A DNA stretch of 64,000 nucleotides from Gammaproteobacteria bacterium (GCA_018262975.1 JADFDG010000013.1:1-64000); one strand, 5' to 3'. Shown: positions 2,208-50,734, counted from the stretch's first letter. The notes: generated by a model from the letters alone, not told the origin. Numbers and translations: made by a program.

Positions 2208-3098
2208 TCAGGACGCCTCGGATCGCAGCAACGCCGGCAGCCGGATGCCTTCCGCACGGAAGGCCTCGGCCACCCGCAGGTGGACATCGGTCTCGAACGC
2301 CTTCTCGTAACGGCAGTCGAACACGTAAGGTCGCGCCTTGATGCGGAACACCACCAGGTTGTTGATGATGACCTGCTGCACCAGGATGGGCACCGGCCGC
2401 CCGAGGAACACATACGGGCTCGACAGGCAGGCCTCGCGAACGATCAGTTGTGCCCGCGCGAGGTCCTGGTCAATGCCGACATGGAAGTCCATCGGAACCT
2501 GCATCTCCAGCTCGCCGTAATTGCCGCTGGAGGTGATGTCTGTGAAGACCTTGTTGTTCGGGATCGTGATCAGGTTGTGATCGAGGGTCATCATGCGCAC
2601 GCTGCGCAGGCCGATCTTCACGATATCGCCGTATTCTCCGGCATAGGAAACACGGTCTCCGACCTGGAACGGCCGGTCGAAGATGATCGTGATGCCGGCA
2701 ATGAACGATGCCACGAGGTCGCGCATCGCAAAGCCGACGGCGAATGCCAATGCGCCGCCGATCACGGTCATTGCCGTGGCATCGAGACGGATGCTCAGGC
2801 CAACCACCACAGCCACCATGCCCGTGTACACCAGGAAGCGCAGCGCGGTCTGCACTTTCTGGATGGTCAGGCGCAGATGCGGGAAGCGGCCCGTGAGGCG
2901 ACCGGTCACGCTGTCGATCATGCGCAGCATGAACAACGCGATGATCACCACGGGCACCGACGCGATCACGCCGCCCCAGCGGATGAATTCAACGATCTTG
3001 CCGAGGTCGGCCTCGGTGGCCGCCACCACCGGCGCGGAAAGCACCAGCAGCAGCCCCAGCAAGCCACTGCGCAACAGCTTGCGTCCGGTCATCGTCAT
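2208..3098 (-). CDS. small MscS-family mechanosensitive channel
   Basis: Inner-membrane channel of the MscS family, 296 residues. The N-terminus is a Sec-type signal or first helix ending near APVVAATEA. Further hydrophobic segments follow, then the pore-helix region GGALAFAVGFAMRDLVASF and the beta domain with FQVGDRV and ITIPNNKVF, all typical of MscS. The start ATG at 3098 overlaps the stop of the upstream membrane ATPase gene (ATGA), so the two are translationally coupled; an ATG two codons later is the alternative. The family releases solutes on hypo-osmotic shock. Coupling to an ATPase suggests a different, energy-dependent control, which is inference. Confidence 0.9.
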   Translation of the reverse strand: MTMTGRKLLRSGLLGLLLVLSAPVVAATEADLGKIVEFIRWGGVIASVPVVIIALFMLRMIDSVTGRLTGRFPHLRLTIQKVQTALRFLVYTGMVAVVVGLSIRLDATAMTVIGGALAFAVGFAMRDLVASFIAGITIIFDRPFQVGDRVSYAGEYGDIVKIGLRSVRMMTLDHNLITIPNNKVFTDITSSGNYGELEMQVPMDFHVGIDQDLARAQLIVREACLSSPYVFLGRPVPILVQQVIINNLVVFRIKARPYVFDCRYEKAFETDVHLRVAEAFRAEGIRLPALLRSEAS

Positions 3099-5707
3099 TG
3101 TGGCTCCACCAGCAGATGTTGTCGTTCCAGCACGCCGCGAACGCTGCGCAGCCAGCACCAGCTCACCGCATAGCGCCCGTCGCGCTCGTCGATGAACCCC
3201 TCCAGGAGGCCCGCCGCCAGCTGGCTGGCCACTTCGGCCGCCGGCAGGCGTGTTACCTCCGCGAGCTCATCGCGCGTCACCGGCTCCATCTGCAGCAGGG
3301 TGCGCAAGAGGAAGTGGGCGGCAATCGGCAGGCGCTCCAGGTAACGGAGATCCTGGCTGGCCAATGTCCGCACGAACACTTTGCCCGCGTCATCGACCAC
3401 CAGCGAGCGACGCCAGGCCTCCAGTGCCAACCCGGGATTTCCGCGCGCATGGTCCCAGAGCAGGCGCGAGAACCAGTCCCGGCGATTTTCCAGTTCTTCG
3501 AGGCGCGTATCGGCGTCGATGGCGTCGCTGTCGGCACCGAGCAGGTCGTCGAAGGCCGGATCGATGCCGGCCTGCGCGGAACGAGCCGCGAGCAGCGCGG
3601 CGATGCCTTCCTCGCTCCATGGCTTCATGCGCATGACCCGGTCGAACAATGGCAACTGATCGCGAGCGCGACTGAGGAATGGCCAGCTGGTTTCCTCCAG
3701 TACGAACAGCCAGACGGCGTCCGGCAGGCGGACGCGCGACTGCGCATGGATGCGATCGAACAGGTGCAAGCCACCGATGGCGGGCTTGAAGAGGCGTTGT
3801 GCATCGTCGACCAGTACCAGGCGCGTGCCCGGTGGATGCACGAGGCAGCGATGCTCGAGGTCGGCCTCATCGCCGGTTAGCGCGCAATCCACGTACACGG
3901 CACCGTCGACGCGGTTCGCCAGCGCCCGCAGGACGCTCGACTTTCCCGTCCCGCGGTAGCCCACGAGGGCAAGTACCGCACCTTGCCCGCGCGTCGTGGC
4001 AGCAACAACCTCGTCGATGACCGCGTCGGCCGGGCAGGCAATCCACGCTGTCGATACCGTGGCCGGGGACAAGCCCTCGAGCGCGGGCCCGGTCATCGGC
4101 TTCTTCACCACCGGGTTGCCACGCGACAGGCGATCTATTTCCTGGCGGAACACCACCGCATGTGCGCGACGGACGATGTCGAACCCGTCGAGCGCCCGAC
4201 GCGCCATGCGCAGGCCACCGTTGAGCAGCAGCGAACCGCCACCGACCGCGACTGCCGCGGCGGCGGCAGCACCCTCACGGTTCTCCAGGGCCCAGCGCTC
4301 GACGGCATTGCGGCGATGCAGGCGGCCAAGGCGCGTGAACACCACCCCGCGCCACCATTGGACGAGCTGATAGCCAACCGGCCAGATCACCAGCCACGAG
4401 AGCGTGAGCACCCAGTGGTAGACGGTGCCGTTGCCCACCAGTTCCGCCGTCAGCGACAGCAATACGCCGATCGCGGCAACCGCGTGGCCCACCAGTTTCA
4501 GGGAGCGCAGGCGCAGGCCATCGGGAATGCCCTGCCACGCGCGTCCGTGGCGCGTGCCCGCGACCGCCAGCGAGGCGTTGATGATGTGCACCACCAGCGA
4601 TACGGCAAGCGCCCAGCCGATGATGACCATCGCCACGCGCACTTCCAGCCAGCCGGCGACCGTCGCCGGCAACAGCCAGGCCACGGCTTCGAACAGCAGT
4701 ATCCACTCGACGGGCCGGACGATGCCGATGATGAACTGTACGGCGCGCCGCGGCCGCCCGGCCACGCCGTAGCCACCCGCGCGTTCGCGGTCGGCCAGTT
4801 GCCGTTCCACCTGCAGCAGCCACGCCGTGCTGAAGCGGCGCAACCAGACGAACAGTGCCAGCACGAGCACCAGCGGTGCCGTTTCACTTAACAGCCACCA
4901 GAGCGTCGCTGGCTGCCAATGCGTCGATTGCGTCACCCAGTCGCGGATGACGAATGCGTGGTAACGGGCGATCAGCGCCAGGTGCCACGCCTCCGCCCCT
5001 GCCTGGTCGAGCGCAGCGCGGTTGAAGCCGGTGATGCGGTCGCGCTTCGTTGGCGACAGGTGCTCGAGCAACTCGAGCCGGTCGGCATTCAGCGCGCTGA
5101 TGGCCTCCAGCGCCGCCGCGGCCTCGTCCTTCTGCAGCGCCAGCTCTTCGCGGCGCAAGGTAGCGACTGAGCCGGCAAGGCGGGTTCGCTCCTCAAGCAC
5201 GCCCACCGCGGCCGGCAAGGAGAGCAGCCCGCCGGCGGGCTCTGCCGGCAGTCGCGGCACGATCGAATGGCCTTCGGCGAGGTGATCGAGATGGCGAGAC
5301 AACGCCTCGCGTCGCGTGCGCAACACGCTGCGCAGGTTGTCATAGGCGGCATCGGTATCCGCCGTGTCGGCAGACGCACGCCAGTCCACGGCCCGCTGTT
5401 GCCAGCCGGTCACTTCCGCCCGGCCGACCGCGAGCGCGGCCCGGCGATCTACCAGCGACTGACCAACGGCGGTGAGTTCCGCGGCGACGTCGGCCAGGCG
5501 CTGCCGCTCCAGGGCAAGCAGTCCGGCGGCCTCGTCTATCGGTTCCGGCGGCGGCGGGGTGGATGGCACCTCCCGTGGCGCCTCGACGGCGACCGGGGCT
5601 GGCATCGCGGCCCCCGGCGTCGCCGTTTCGGTTTCTGCCATGGCCGGCGCAGACACCCACATCCCGGCCAGCACCAGCAGCCATCCCAATCTGTCACGCA
5701 ACGCCAT
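3095..5707 (-). CDS. membrane protein with periplasmic coiled coil and cytoplasmic P-loop ATPase
   Basis: 870 residues, not matched to a named family. In order: signal peptide (cut near PAMA-ETE, residue 24), Pro-rich stretch, a charged helical region at about 60-250 likely to form coiled coils in the periplasm, about five membrane segments (near 267-290, 322-350, 357-385, 404-424, 427-450), then a cytoplasmic ATPase with Walker A GYRGTGKS (K589) and Walker B LVLVDDAQRL (D634, D635). The last 80 residues resemble a winged helix. The periplasmic coiled coil plus membrane bundle recalls the N-terminal half of MscK/MscM-type giant channels, whose pore domain here is encoded by the overlapping downstream gene. 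Function is unknown; an ATP-driven gate or sensor for the MscS pore is a hypothesis. Confidence 0.82.
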   Translation of the reverse strand: MALRDRLGWLLVLAGMWVSAPAMAETETATPGAAMPAPVAVEAPREVPSTPPPPEPIDEAAGLLALERQRLADVAAELTAVGQSLVDRRAALAVGRAEVTGWQQRAVDWRASADTADTDAAYDNLRSVLRTRREALSRHLDHLAEGHSIVPRLPAEPAGGLLSLPAAVGVLEERTRLAGSVATLRREELALQKDEAAAALEAISALNADRLELLEHLSPTKRDRITGFNRAALDQAGAEAWHLALIARYHAFVIRDWVTQSTHWQPATLWWLLSETAPLVLVLALFVWLRRFSTAWLLQVERQLADRERAGGYGVAGRPRRAVQFIIGIVRPVEWILLFEAVAWLLPATVAGWLEVRVAMVIIGWALAVSLVVHIINASLAVAGTRHGRAWQGIPDGLRLRSLKLVGHAVAAIGVLLSLTAELVGNGTVYHWVLTLSWLVIWPVGYQLVQWWRGVVFTRLGRLHRRNAVERWALENREGAAAAAAVAVGGGSLLLNGGLRMARRALDGFDIVRRAHAVVFRQEIDRLSRGNPVVKKPMTGPALEGLSPATVSTAWIACPADAVIDEVVAATTRGQGAVLALVGYRGTGKSSVLRALANRVDGAVYVDCALTGDEADLEHRCLVHPPGTRLVLVDDAQRLFKPAIGGLHLFDRIHAQSRVRLPDAVWLFVLEETSWPFLSRARDQLPLFDRVMRMKPWSEEGIAALLAARSAQAGIDPAFDDLLGADSDAIDADTRLEELENRRDWFSRLLWDHARGNPGLALEAWRRSLVVDDAGKVFVRTLASQDLRYLERLPIAAHFLLRTLLQMEPVTRDELAEVTRLPAAEVASQLAAGLLEGFIDERDGRYAVSWCWLRSVRGVLERQHLLVEPQ

Positions 5708-5824: not shown

Positions 5825-7231
5825 TCAGGCCGGCGGCAGCCGCACCACCCGCACCTTCTTCTGCAACGCACTCACCAGCAACTTGTAGGTGTCGCGGTCG
5901 AACACCGGCTCGGCCGGGCTGGCGAGGATCTCCGGCACGTCGCTGTCGTCGCGCGCGGTGCCCAGCCAGCACCAGTGGTTCACCACGTGCAGCTCGCGCA
6001 GGCCGGCCTCTTCGTTTTCCTCGATGAAGCCCACCGGGCCGTCGAACGGCCAGGTGCGCAACGCCAGGGTTTCCAGCGCCTGCAGCATGCGCACGTTGTG
6101 CTGCTGCGCGGTTTCGGTACCCACGCACCAGCCGTCGCAGCGCTTCACCTGGCGTGCGCTGCAGGCGCGGCCGGCGGGCTGCTTTTCCAGGCCGGTGGCG
6201 ACCAGGCAGAGGCGGTGCGCGGCGGCGAGGTCGCGCAGCGCGGTTTTCGCCGCGGTGGGCGAGGGGAACAATCCGTACAGTCGCGGCGCGCGGCCCTTGA
6301 GGTCGCGGGCGAACACCACGCGCGGGCGCAGCAGGCCGTCGCGGTCTTCCTCCAGCAGCAGGCTGCACAGTTGGCCTTGCCGGCGCAGCTGGCGGTTCAT
6401 CAGCGGCTGGCGCTCCTTGACCAGCCGCGCCTCGCGCAGCAACGCGCCAAGTTCGCCGGCGGTTTCCTGCCAGTCGATGCGCCGCACCTGCTGGCACAGG
6501 CGCATTTCGCGGCTGCTGGTGTGATCACTGGCGAAATGCGACAACACGCGCGTGCGGATGTTCTTGCTCTTGCCCACGTACAGCAGCGTGTCGTTGTCGC
6601 CGTAGAAGAGATAGACGCCCGGCGTTTCCGGCAGCGCATCGATCACGGCCGGATCCAGCGCCGGCGGCAGCGTGGCGCGCTTGCCCTGGCGCAGGATGGC
6701 AGCCGCCACGGTGTCCGCGCCCAGCTCGGTTTCCGCCGCCTGCAGGAACTGCCACACCGCGCGCGCGTCGGCCAGGGCGCGGTGGCGCTCCTCCATTTCC
6801 AGCCGGTGGCGGGCAATCAACGCATCGAGGCCGTGGCGCTCTTCGTGCGGGTACAGCGCGCGCGACAGGCGCACGGTGCACAGCAGTTGCGGGTTGAAGC
6901 GCAGCCCGGCGCGCTGGAACTCGTTGCGCAGGAAGCCGTGGTCGAAGCGCACGTTGTGGGCGATGAACAGGCGGCCCTGCAGGCGCGCGTGCAGTTCGGC
7001 GGCGATTTCCTCGAAGGTCGGCGCGCCGGCGACCATGTCGTTGGTGATGCCGGTGAGACGCTCGATTATCGGCGGGATGCGTACGCCGGGGTTCACCAGC
7101 GACGACCACTCGCGCACGCCGGCCTCATCGATCTCGACAATGCCGATCTCGGTGATGCGGTCGAAGGTGGCGCGGCCGCCGGTGGTCTCGAGGTCGACGA
7201 TGGCCGCCGGCAACGGCAGGGCGCGGGTCAT
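5825..7231 (-). CDS. DEDDh exonuclease / GIY-YIG (UvrC-like) nuclease fusion
   Basis: 468 residues. The N-terminal half is a DnaQ-like 3'-5' exonuclease: VDLETTGG carries D13 and E15, followed by IAHNVRFDHGFL and HRALADARAVWQFL with the remaining acidic and His positions. The second half starts with a GIY-YIG nuclease domain (PGVYLFYGDNDTLLYVGKSKN) as in UvrC and Cho. The UvrC C-terminal RNase H and HhH domains are absent, so this is not the excision-repair subunit itself. Related fusions are annotated as polymerase III epsilon-like proteins or Cho homologues and are presumed to act in DNA repair. The start at 7231 gives the conserved beginning of the exonuclease fold; no clear ribosome site precedes it. 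A longer frame upstream lacks plausible coding content. Confidence 0.88.
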   Translation of the reverse strand: MTRALPLPAAIVDLETTGGRATFDRITEIGIVEIDEAGVREWSSLVNPGVRIPPIIERLTGITNDMVAGAPTFEEIAAELHARLQGRLFIAHNVRFDHGFLRNEFQRAGLRFNPQLLCTVRLSRALYPHEERHGLDALIARHRLEMEERHRALADARAVWQFLQAAETELGADTVAAAILRQGKRATLPPALDPAVIDALPETPGVYLFYGDNDTLLYVGKSKNIRTRVLSHFASDHTSSREMRLCQQVRRIDWQETAGELGALLREARLVKERQPLMNRQLRRQGQLCSLLLEEDRDGLLRPRVVFARDLKGRAPRLYGLFPSPTAAKTALRDLAAAHRLCLVATGLEKQPAGRACSARQVKRCDGWCVGTETAQQHNVRMLQALETLALRTWPFDGPVGFIEENEEAGLRELHVVNHWCWLGTARDDSDVPEILASPAEPVFDRDTYKLLVSALQKKVRVVRLPPA

Positions 7232-7314
7232 GGGGGTGGTGTGCTGCGCAGGATCGGGCTGCGGGAAGCATGCCCGATCCGGGAGCGCGTGTGCAGCGGG
7301 GAAAAGCGAAGAGC

Positions 7315-7338
7315 TCGGGGGCGTGGCCCCCTCTCTAC
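7315..7338 (-). repeat. GTAG REP, single copy
   Basis: GTAGAGAG-type copy with CAC in place of the CAT loop (read on the minus strand), between the MpaB stop and the exonuclease fusion start. It is flanked by GAAGAGC. Confidence 0.85.
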
Positions 7339-7356
7339 GAAGAGCGTGGCGCGATG

Positions 7357-8313
7357 TCAGGCGACGGTGATGACCGGCGGGACGACGCCCTGCAGGTGGC
7401 CATCGGGCTTGCGCGGCAGGGTGCGCGCCGGCGGCGCCACCTTGCGCGAGCGGCGCTCGATGCCCTCGAGTTCGCGCGCATAGGCCCGCGCATGGTAGGC
7501 CAGCGGCACGTAGCGCACCGATTCCGGCAGGCGGTGGTAGACCGGGCGGATGGTGGCCATCATGCCGCGCAGCGCCGCCTCGTGGGCGCCGGTCCAGCGC
7601 ACGCCGAGTTTTTCGCGCGCCGAATCGGTCATGCCACCGAGCAGGAACAGCAGCGCCACCTGGCCACCCGCGCGGCGCACGGGCGCGGTCAGCTGCGCGA
7701 TCACCGGTGGCAGCGGCGCGTCGAGGCGAGTTGCCTGGTTCAGGATCAGGTCGGCCATCTTCGTGCGCGACAGGCGCTCGGAGACCATGGTCTCGTAGTA
7801 ATCCCAGTAGTCCTTCACCGTGGCCGGCAGTTGCGAGGGATGGATGCGCAGGATGTCGCCGAGCTGCAGCATCTCGTCGTAATACGACTCTTCTTCCTTC
7901 GCGGTGAGGTGGCGGCCGTGGATGTACGGGTAGATCCGGGTGGCGGTGACGAACGCGGTGGCGTGCACCCAGCCGTAGGCTTCCTGTTCCACCGCGTGGT
8001 AACGCTCGCCGTCGTCGGCCACGCCCTTCATCGCCGCGTGCAGCTTGATCAGCCGGCGGCCTTCCTCGATGGCCGCCTGGCCACCGTAGATCCACTTCAC
8101 GATCGATTCCATGTTGCGCACGGCGCGACCCACCGGCTCCTCGAACACGTCGGAATGCATGTCCACCACGCGGGCGATGGTGGGGTGCATGACCTGCAGG
8201 ATGAAGGCGCCGCCGCTGAAGGCATGGGTCATCACGTCGCCGAATTCATCCCACAGGCGGGCGCCGGGGCCGAAGGGAACGGGTTCGCGGGCGGGGCGGT
8301 CGACGGTGGTCAT
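7357..8313 (-). CDS. MpaB-family oxygenase (DUF2236)
   Basis: 318 residues resembling the DUF2236/MpaB heme-oxygenase family, which includes latex-clearing proteins and oxygenases acting on hydrophobic substrates. Visible family features are the N-terminal GGAFILQVMHPTIARVV segment, HSDVFEEPVGRAVRNMES, and WVHATAFVTATRIY with its histidine. The substrate is not deducible. The start at 8313 is supported by AGGAG about 11 bases upstream on the minus strand; the longer frame would begin in a REP. The gene is divergent from a TetR gene, with two REPs and a palindromic operator between them, so that TetR protein probably controls it. A lipid or hydrocarbon role would fit the window but is inference. 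Confidence 0.85.
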   Translation of the reverse strand: MTTVDRPAREPVPFGPGARLWDEFGDVMTHAFSGGAFILQVMHPTIARVVDMHSDVFEEPVGRAVRNMESIVKWIYGGQAAIEEGRRLIKLHAAMKGVADDGERYHAVEQEAYGWVHATAFVTATRIYPYIHGRHLTAKEEESYYDEMLQLGDILRIHPSQLPATVKDYWDYYETMVSERLSRTKMADLILNQATRLDAPLPPVIAQLTAPVRRAGGQVALLFLLGGMTDSAREKLGVRWTGAHEAALRGMMATIRPVYHRLPESVRYVPLAYHARAYARELEGIERRSRKVAPPARTLPRKPDGHLQGVVPPVITVA

Positions 8314-10305: not shown

Positions 10306-10317
10306 CCCCGCTTGTCG

Positions 10318-10381
10318 TAGAGAGGGGGCCATGCCCCCGATGCCTTTCGAACGAGCGTCGGGGGCATGGCCCCCTCTCTAC
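10318..10381. repeat. GTAG REP inverted pair (REPIN)
   Basis: Both copies are GTAGAGAG type, converging (10318-10340 and 10357-10381), in the gap between the barrel gene and pirin. Confidence 0.9.
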
Positions 10382-39727: not shown

Positions 39728-39816
39728 CGAGGGGGCATGCGCCTCTTCGTAGCGAGGGGGCCATGCCCCCGATATGATTCAGGACAAGAGCGTCGGGGGC
39801 ATGGCCCCCTCTCTAC
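39724..39816. repeat. three GTAG REP copies, one truncated
   Basis: A 17-base truncated copy (39724-39740) forms the kinase stop codon. A full GTAGCGAG copy (39749-39773) and an opposing GTAGAGAG copy (39792-39816) then form an inverted pair ahead of the quinone oxidoreductase gene. Confidence 0.88.
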
Positions 39817-48710: not shown

Positions 48711-48789
48711 GTAGCGAGGGGGCCATGCCCCCGACGCTTTTGCTCCCGCTCTCTCGATGGCTGAATCGGGGGCATGGCCCCCTCGCTAC
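48711..48789. repeat. GTAG REP inverted pair (REPIN)
   Basis: Copies at 48711-48735 and 48765-48789, both GTAGCGAG type and converging, in the convergent junction between the SnoaL-like and MFS genes. On the minus strand the second copy supplies the TAG stop of the MFS gene (48788-48786). Confidence 0.9.
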
Positions 48790-50652: not shown

Positions 50653-50734
50653 GTAGAGAGGGGGCCATGCCCCCGACGCTCTTTCTCCGTCGTCCTGCGT
50701 CTGAAAGGCATCGGGGGCATGGCCCCCTCTCTAC
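50653..50734. repeat. GTAG REP inverted pair (REPIN)
   Basis: Copies at 50653-50677 and 50710-50734, both GTAGAGAG type and converging, just downstream of the second RND permease stop. The remainder of the 50491-50743 gap holds only the putative promoter of the secreted-protein gene. Confidence 0.9.

Follow-up and report, generated by a model that had tools for sequence, protein, structure and literature searches.

An MscS-type channel gene and an AAA/winged-helix partner gene paired across bacterial phyla

The MscS-type channel gene and the overlapping ATPase gene found in the window (the whole 64,000-nucleotide stretch of DNA analysed here) constitute a conserved two-gene system, and this single gene pair belongs to a widespread family. 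The invariant unit of the family is an AAA/winged-helix fold together with an MscS channel; the MscK-like half of the ATPase and ATP hydrolysis itself are optional. MscS is the standard model of a force-gated channel and is usually regarded as a self-contained tension sensor. The conserved pair suggests a dedicated, possibly nucleotide-sensing, regulatory subunit for these channels, and with slightly better than even confidence we read the two genes as one channel system composed of an MscS-type pore and such a subunit. If this is true, bacteria regulate MscS pores via a second protein, possibly via its nucleotide state. No description of the ATPase/MscS pair was found in searches of 5.4 million open-access papers, and one may exist elsewhere.

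Layout and domains of the gene pair

Both genes lie on the minus strand, the ATPase (partner) gene being upstream, and the start codon of the MscS gene is the ATG within the ATGA overlap. The features are as follows, with residue numbers referring to the encoded protein.

3095..5707, minus strand: MscS partner, type I, an 870-residue membrane protein with an AAA/winged-helix domain predicted to be cytosolic (ORF; AlphaFold pLDDT 90)
5636..5707, minus strand: signal peptide, residues 1-24 (...SAPAMA/E; sequence read by eye)
4913..5539, minus strand: periplasmic long-helix region, residues 57-265 (AlphaFold helices 57-111, 115-145, 165-214 and 230-261)
4322..4912, minus strand: membrane region, residues 266-462, about five spans, probably MscK-like (family-averaged hydropathy; Foldseek; hhalign)
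3563..4087, minus strand: Orc1/Cdc6/STAND-like NTPase domain, residues ~541-715 (Foldseek; AAA_22 in relatives)
3938..3961, minus strand: Walker A motif GYRGTGKS, residues 583-590, containing K589 (sequence; K in 84/122 aligned relatives)
3803..3820, minus strand: Walker B motif LVLVDD, residues 630-635, containing D634/D635 (sequence; D634 in 112/124 rows)
3434..3442, minus strand: GNP motif, residues 756-758, at the STAND-like GxP position (no variation at G756, N757 or P758 among 55 sequences)
3122..3349, minus strand: winged-helix tail, residues ~787-862 (AlphaFold secondary structure; weak DprA_WH match)
3095..3098, minus strand: ATGA stop/start overlap of the ATPase and MscS genes (sequence)
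2208..3098, minus strand: MscS-type channel of the ATPase-paired clade, 296 residues (PF00924, 64 bits; tree)
2679..2774, minus strand: presumably the MscS pore helix TM3, residues ~109-140 (aligned to the E. coli MscS sequence)

The structure of the 870-residue protein was predicted with AlphaFold from an alignment of 55 relatives (mean pLDDT 90, pTM 0.75). The N-terminus, MALRDRLGWLLVLAGMWVSAPAMA/ETET, has the form of a typical signal peptide, the membrane region comprises helical segments at residues 266-311, 318-345, 354-391, 396-423 and 428-462, and an alpha/beta NTPase domain starting at about residue 541 is followed by a winged helix that extends to the C-terminal end. Hydropathy averaged over the ATPase family also supports about five membrane spans; together with the cleaved signal peptide, these five spans would place the NTPase domain in the cytosol. 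The preliminary description had read from the sequence a signal peptide, a helical (coiled-coil) region in the periplasm, about five membrane segments, intact Walker A (K589) and Walker B (D634/D635) motifs, a winged-helix-like tail and an ATGA overlap with a small MscS gene, all of which are borne out, as is its view that the accessory half is separate from the pore, the two being encoded by overlapping genes.

A winged helix placed after a P-loop NTPase core characterizes AAA and Orc1/Cdc6-like NTPases, and STAND NTPases (AP-ATPase, NACHT, MalT-like) share this arrangement. A search against Pfam gave AAA_22 at 24.7 bits for the window protein, which is under the cut-off of 27; the same family is matched by 53 of the 55 relatives (best E 1.5e-12), among which there are also weaker matches to AAA_16, nSTAND5, NACHT and ATPase_2. 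Comparison of the NTPase domain with the PDB using Foldseek returned Orc1/Cdc6 and RuvB at E values of about 1e-6. The catalytic Walker A lysine and the Walker B motif are intact in the window protein but not family-wide. Among the features of STAND proteins, the GxP motif ahead of the winged helix is present as GNP (756-758), the hhGRExE pattern ahead of Walker A was not found in the window protein, and the C-terminal repeat sensor is absent, the protein ending after the winged helix. Since the hhGRExE motif and the repeats are missing, the domain is named here an Orc1/Cdc6/STAND-like NTPase domain and the protein is not classed as a STAND protein. In contrast to Orc1/Cdc6 and STAND NTPases, the partner is membrane-anchored in its type I form, is without a DNA-binding or repeat-sensor context and has often lost its catalytic residues.

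The pair might be an immune or signalling switch of the STAND type, with the NTPase sensing a trigger and the MscS protein serving as a membrane-permeabilizing effector; this is suggested by the GNP motif, by the weak STAND/NACHT-type Pfam matches and by the occurrence of Apaf-1 and a plant resistosome among the Foldseek matches. We give this explanation hardly any credence, however, given that a search of the window protein against the PADLOC models found no family at E 0.01, that the chain stops at the winged helix with no repeat sensor, that the P-loop is lost across whole lineages and that the window genes adjoining the pair are of metabolic and DNA-repair type. A defence-island location of the pair was considered separately and rejected, with no PADLOC match for the window protein and with flanks that are conserved within genera alone.

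The membrane and periplasmic half was examined for likeness to MscK. None of the 55 ATPase members matches MscS_TM (PF12794) or MscS_porin (PF12795) at E 0.01. When the N-terminal half was folded alone with AlphaFold (pLDDT 89.5) and compared using Foldseek, two E. coli MscK structures ranked first (probabilities 0.96 and 0.94, E 2.6e-3 and 1.3e-2, with a low TM-score) and MscK was the sole clear match, the one after it having a probability of 0.33. Profile comparison with 26 MscK/MscM-type proteins using a local run of hhalign produced a probability of 91%, or 93% when the full-length profile was used. The match covers 236 collinear columns, which start where the periplasmic helices end and continue into the membrane domain. 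With reversed profiles the probability was 15-24% and with shuffled profiles less than 1%. The match needs the combined region, the membrane part alone giving 17% and the periplasmic part alone 5%. The likeness to MscK proposed in the preliminary description is thus upheld as probable: this half is probably a distant homolog of MscK, with a resemblance at the edge of significance.

The product of the downstream gene contains both a beta domain and a pore helix and is assigned on its sequence to the MscS channel superfamily. It matches PF00924 in Pfam (E 1.4e-17, 64 bits) and MscS profiles derived from the PDB at E values of 1e-22 to 1e-16.

Conservation of the pairing across genomes

Pairing was assessed from both sides. 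Selection by the ATPase alone gave 41 genomes in the order, five more in the class and a further nine in the phylum (55 including the window), and an MscS gene of the paired type lies directly downstream of the ATPase in 55/55. A single-sequence scan of genome contigs with the window ATPase produced no match, and the loci selected by MscS alone were obtained by scanning about 85,000 species genomes with an MscS alignment. Among the best 80 of these loci, the ATPase is directly upstream in 78 of the 79 that are assessable, the contig ending at the remaining one (L078); it is also upstream in 17/17 genomes of a weaker, more distant MscS tier within the order. The single exception, L091, is a true orphan, with an MscS of the paired clade that is 65% identical to the window MscS and has no ATPase upstream, and it provides a natural comparison case. 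Conserved adjacency to MscS genes, the absence of which had been set beforehand as grounds for abandoning the idea of a split channel, is therefore almost universal in both directions. Since the pair is kept in more than 140 loci, the pairing is not due to chance.

The interval between the ATPase stop and the MscS start is about -10 to +17 nt in almost every locus, and the exceptions are mostly frameshifted or split loci. In four loci (L060 in genome G174, L106, L131 and L134) the ATPase is apparently split or frameshifted and the MscS gene is intact, reflecting either sequencing error or real decay. As a control, none of the 23 other MscS genes of the same loci has an ATPase neighbour, nor do the three further MscS homologs of the window genome. 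No third gene conserved across lineages was found among the flanks of the loci, the other common neighbours of the pair representing genus-level synteny, housekeeping types or additional MscS copies. In L087, L089, L097, L121 and L200, which are from Myxococcota and from a Caulobacter plasmid, a second, different MscS gene directly follows the paired one; the extra MscS of these three-gene clusters could be an additional subunit or could have been acquired in tandem.

The pair occurs in Gammaproteobacteria, Alphaproteobacteria, Myxococcota and Lentisphaerota. Hosts include Vibrio, Aliivibrio fischeri, Photobacterium, Shewanella, Psychromonas, Thalassotalea, Novosphingobium, Croceicoccus, Hyphomonas, Lentisphaera marina and many Myxococcota (Enhygromyxa, Polyangiaceae), such that the clade with this near-obligate AAA-fold partner includes culturable Vibrio, Aliivibrio and Shewanella. 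One Caulobacter plasmid and one Novosphingobium plasmid also carry it, with annotation limited to 'ATP-binding protein' or 'AAA family ATPase' and 'mechanosensitive ion channel'. Myxococcota proteins are up to 67% identical to the window MscS, which would fit transfer of the pair from one phylum to another.

On a tree the paired MscS proteins are split from 21 other MscS proteins with a support of 0.90 and no misplaced members. Residues that are rare elsewhere in MscS and mark the paired clade are D127, Y156, D174, N193, G195, F205, S227, P235, F268, D271 and R275. Distances on the ATPase and MscS trees correlate with r = 0.94 over 117 pairs, a value calculated without a control gene pair and hence indicative of co-inheritance of the two genes, not of contact between their products.

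Adjacency can also stem from co-expression without contact, and L091 and the borderline resemblance to MscK (Foldseek E 2.6e-3) likewise count against a regulatory subunit. The operon-like spacing would indeed give co-expression, so that the two proteins might act separately in one osmotic or envelope stress response. This explanation appears distinctly improbable, as near-absolute two-way pairing across phyla, a fixed gene order and the lack of any other conserved neighbour exceed what is usual for loose co-regulation.

Loss of catalytic residues and a soluble form

The position of K589 is occupied by lysine in 84 of the 122 aligned relatives. The 31 Vibrio/Shewanella-type proteins sampled, a single clade on the tree, all have Thr, Val, Ala, Ser or Leu there instead, and four smaller groups have Arg or Leu; parsimony requires five changes from an ancestral lysine. 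The lysine is likewise lost in seven additional Vibrio-type genomes. At the second Walker B position, 56 of the 124 rows have Asn, 48 have Asp and 15 have Glu. Given the repeated loss of the catalytic lysine, members of this one conserved gene pair can be arranged in a natural series running from NTPases to pseudo-NTPases.

A second form of the partner, type II (L062, L073, L075, L076 and L157-L173), consists of about 385-450 residues with no signal peptide and no membrane span (L062 being doubtful) and is also encoded directly upstream of MscS. Its members are mostly without either Walker motif, and the P-loop is kept in only one of the 17 loci L157-L173, namely L159; an apparent Walker A in L169 was rejected, as it falls within a low-complexity insert and off the P-loop position. 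Profile comparison links the P-loop-less form to the family (98.6%, E 7e-16) over a stretch that starts at Walker B and extends to the winged helix. The losses of the Walker A lysine and the mostly P-loop-less soluble form indicate that the constant partner of the channel is the AAA/winged-helix fold and not ATP hydrolysis, and the continued pairing of type II indicates that the cytosolic domain alone is enough to keep it. The preliminary description held that the accessory half had gained an ATPase and that the pore may therefore be gated or assembled by nucleotide, a conclusion weakened by these losses. The constant component is the AAA/winged-helix domain and not the MscK-like half, the membrane half being absent from type II.

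The strictest version of nucleotide gating, in which cycles of ATP hydrolysis open or close the pore, is very improbable on this evidence: Walker A and B are intact in the window protein and lysine is retained in 84/122 relatives, but the lysine is missing from 31/31 sampled Vibrio/Shewanella-type proteins and others, the second Walker B residue is most often Asn and type II members mostly lack both motifs. The same losses bear on the possibility that the partner is an assembly or quality-control factor that aids the insertion, oligomerization or turnover of MscS and leaves gating of the finished channel unchanged. Such a factor would fit an AAA-type fold, the conserved 1:1 pairing and a tight translational coupling in which the partner is made first. 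We nevertheless consider it unlikely, since other MscS channels in the same genomes manage without one, loss of the Walker A lysine and of the type II P-loop is ill-suited to an ATP-driven remodeller and an MscK-like sensory half would be superfluous.

Proposed role and relation to known systems

In the favoured reading, that of a channel with a dedicated regulatory subunit, the pore would be a heptamer of the MscS type and the partner its regulatory subunit. The NTPase-like and winged-helix domain would contact the channel, most likely by docking at the cytosolic face of the MscS assembly, and the docked partner would either shift the ease of pore opening or stabilize the pore. In type I the domain is attached to the MscK-like half in membrane and periplasm, through which membrane tension or the state of the envelope could be signalled. 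The best reading for lineages with an intact P-loop, such as that of the window, is a nucleotide-responsive subunit, with nucleotide as the putative ligand and its binding (perhaps with slow hydrolysis) setting the regulatory state; in lineages with a decayed P-loop the same fold would act as a constitutive structural regulator. A further-reaching proposal, which is possible but which we advance only tentatively, is that the whole MscS clade consists of obligate two-component channels, with opening set by a nucleotide-sensing AAA/winged-helix subunit mounted on an MscK-like tension or envelope sensor and with the nucleotide site having become secondarily a fixed structural element in Vibrio-type lineages, in parallel with KATP channels.

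KATP channels (Kir6 and SUR) combine a pore with a separate nucleotide-binding regulatory membrane protein in which the ATPase sites are partly degenerate. The parallel is one of analogy alone; the folds are unrelated, and the present pair is known from sequence and predicted structure. Bacterial cyclic-nucleotide-gated (bCNG) channels have an MscS-type pore fused to a cytosolic ligand-binding module that binds cAMP, whereas here the cytosolic module is a separate P-loop protein and regulation of the pore is proposed. MscK (KefA) and MscM (PF12795 and PF12794 followed by an MscS pore) likewise have long periplasmic helices, a multi-span membrane domain and then the pore; in the present system, by contrast, the pore is on a separate protein and the membrane half bears an AAA/winged-helix domain instead. 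The small channels E. coli MscS and YnaI share the pore and beta domain with the paired MscS proteins, which differ in standing apart as a clade that is marked by conserved residues of its own and by a partner gene that is almost always present. Four mechanosensitive channels have been described in Halomonas elongata, namely mscK, an MscS 43% identical to that of E. coli and two long YbiO-type proteins (PMC7174268); no link to an ATPase/MscS pair was found in the passages of that study consulted.

The product of the window gene lying upstream of the pair (5825-7519, minus strand) combines an exonuclease (RNase_T, PF00929) with a GIY-YIG nuclease domain, an architecture resembling DNA polymerase III epsilon/Cho-type fusions. 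The 64 kb contain 25 copies of a REP-like palindromic repeat, GGCATGGCCCCCTCTCTAC, compared with 0.06 expected. The copies are often arranged in facing pairs and lie at sites that include 251, 2130-2176, 7320, 8348, 9165, 10317-10381, 39749-39816, 48711-48789 and 50653-50734. One such pair (2130-2176) is located just downstream of the MscS gene.
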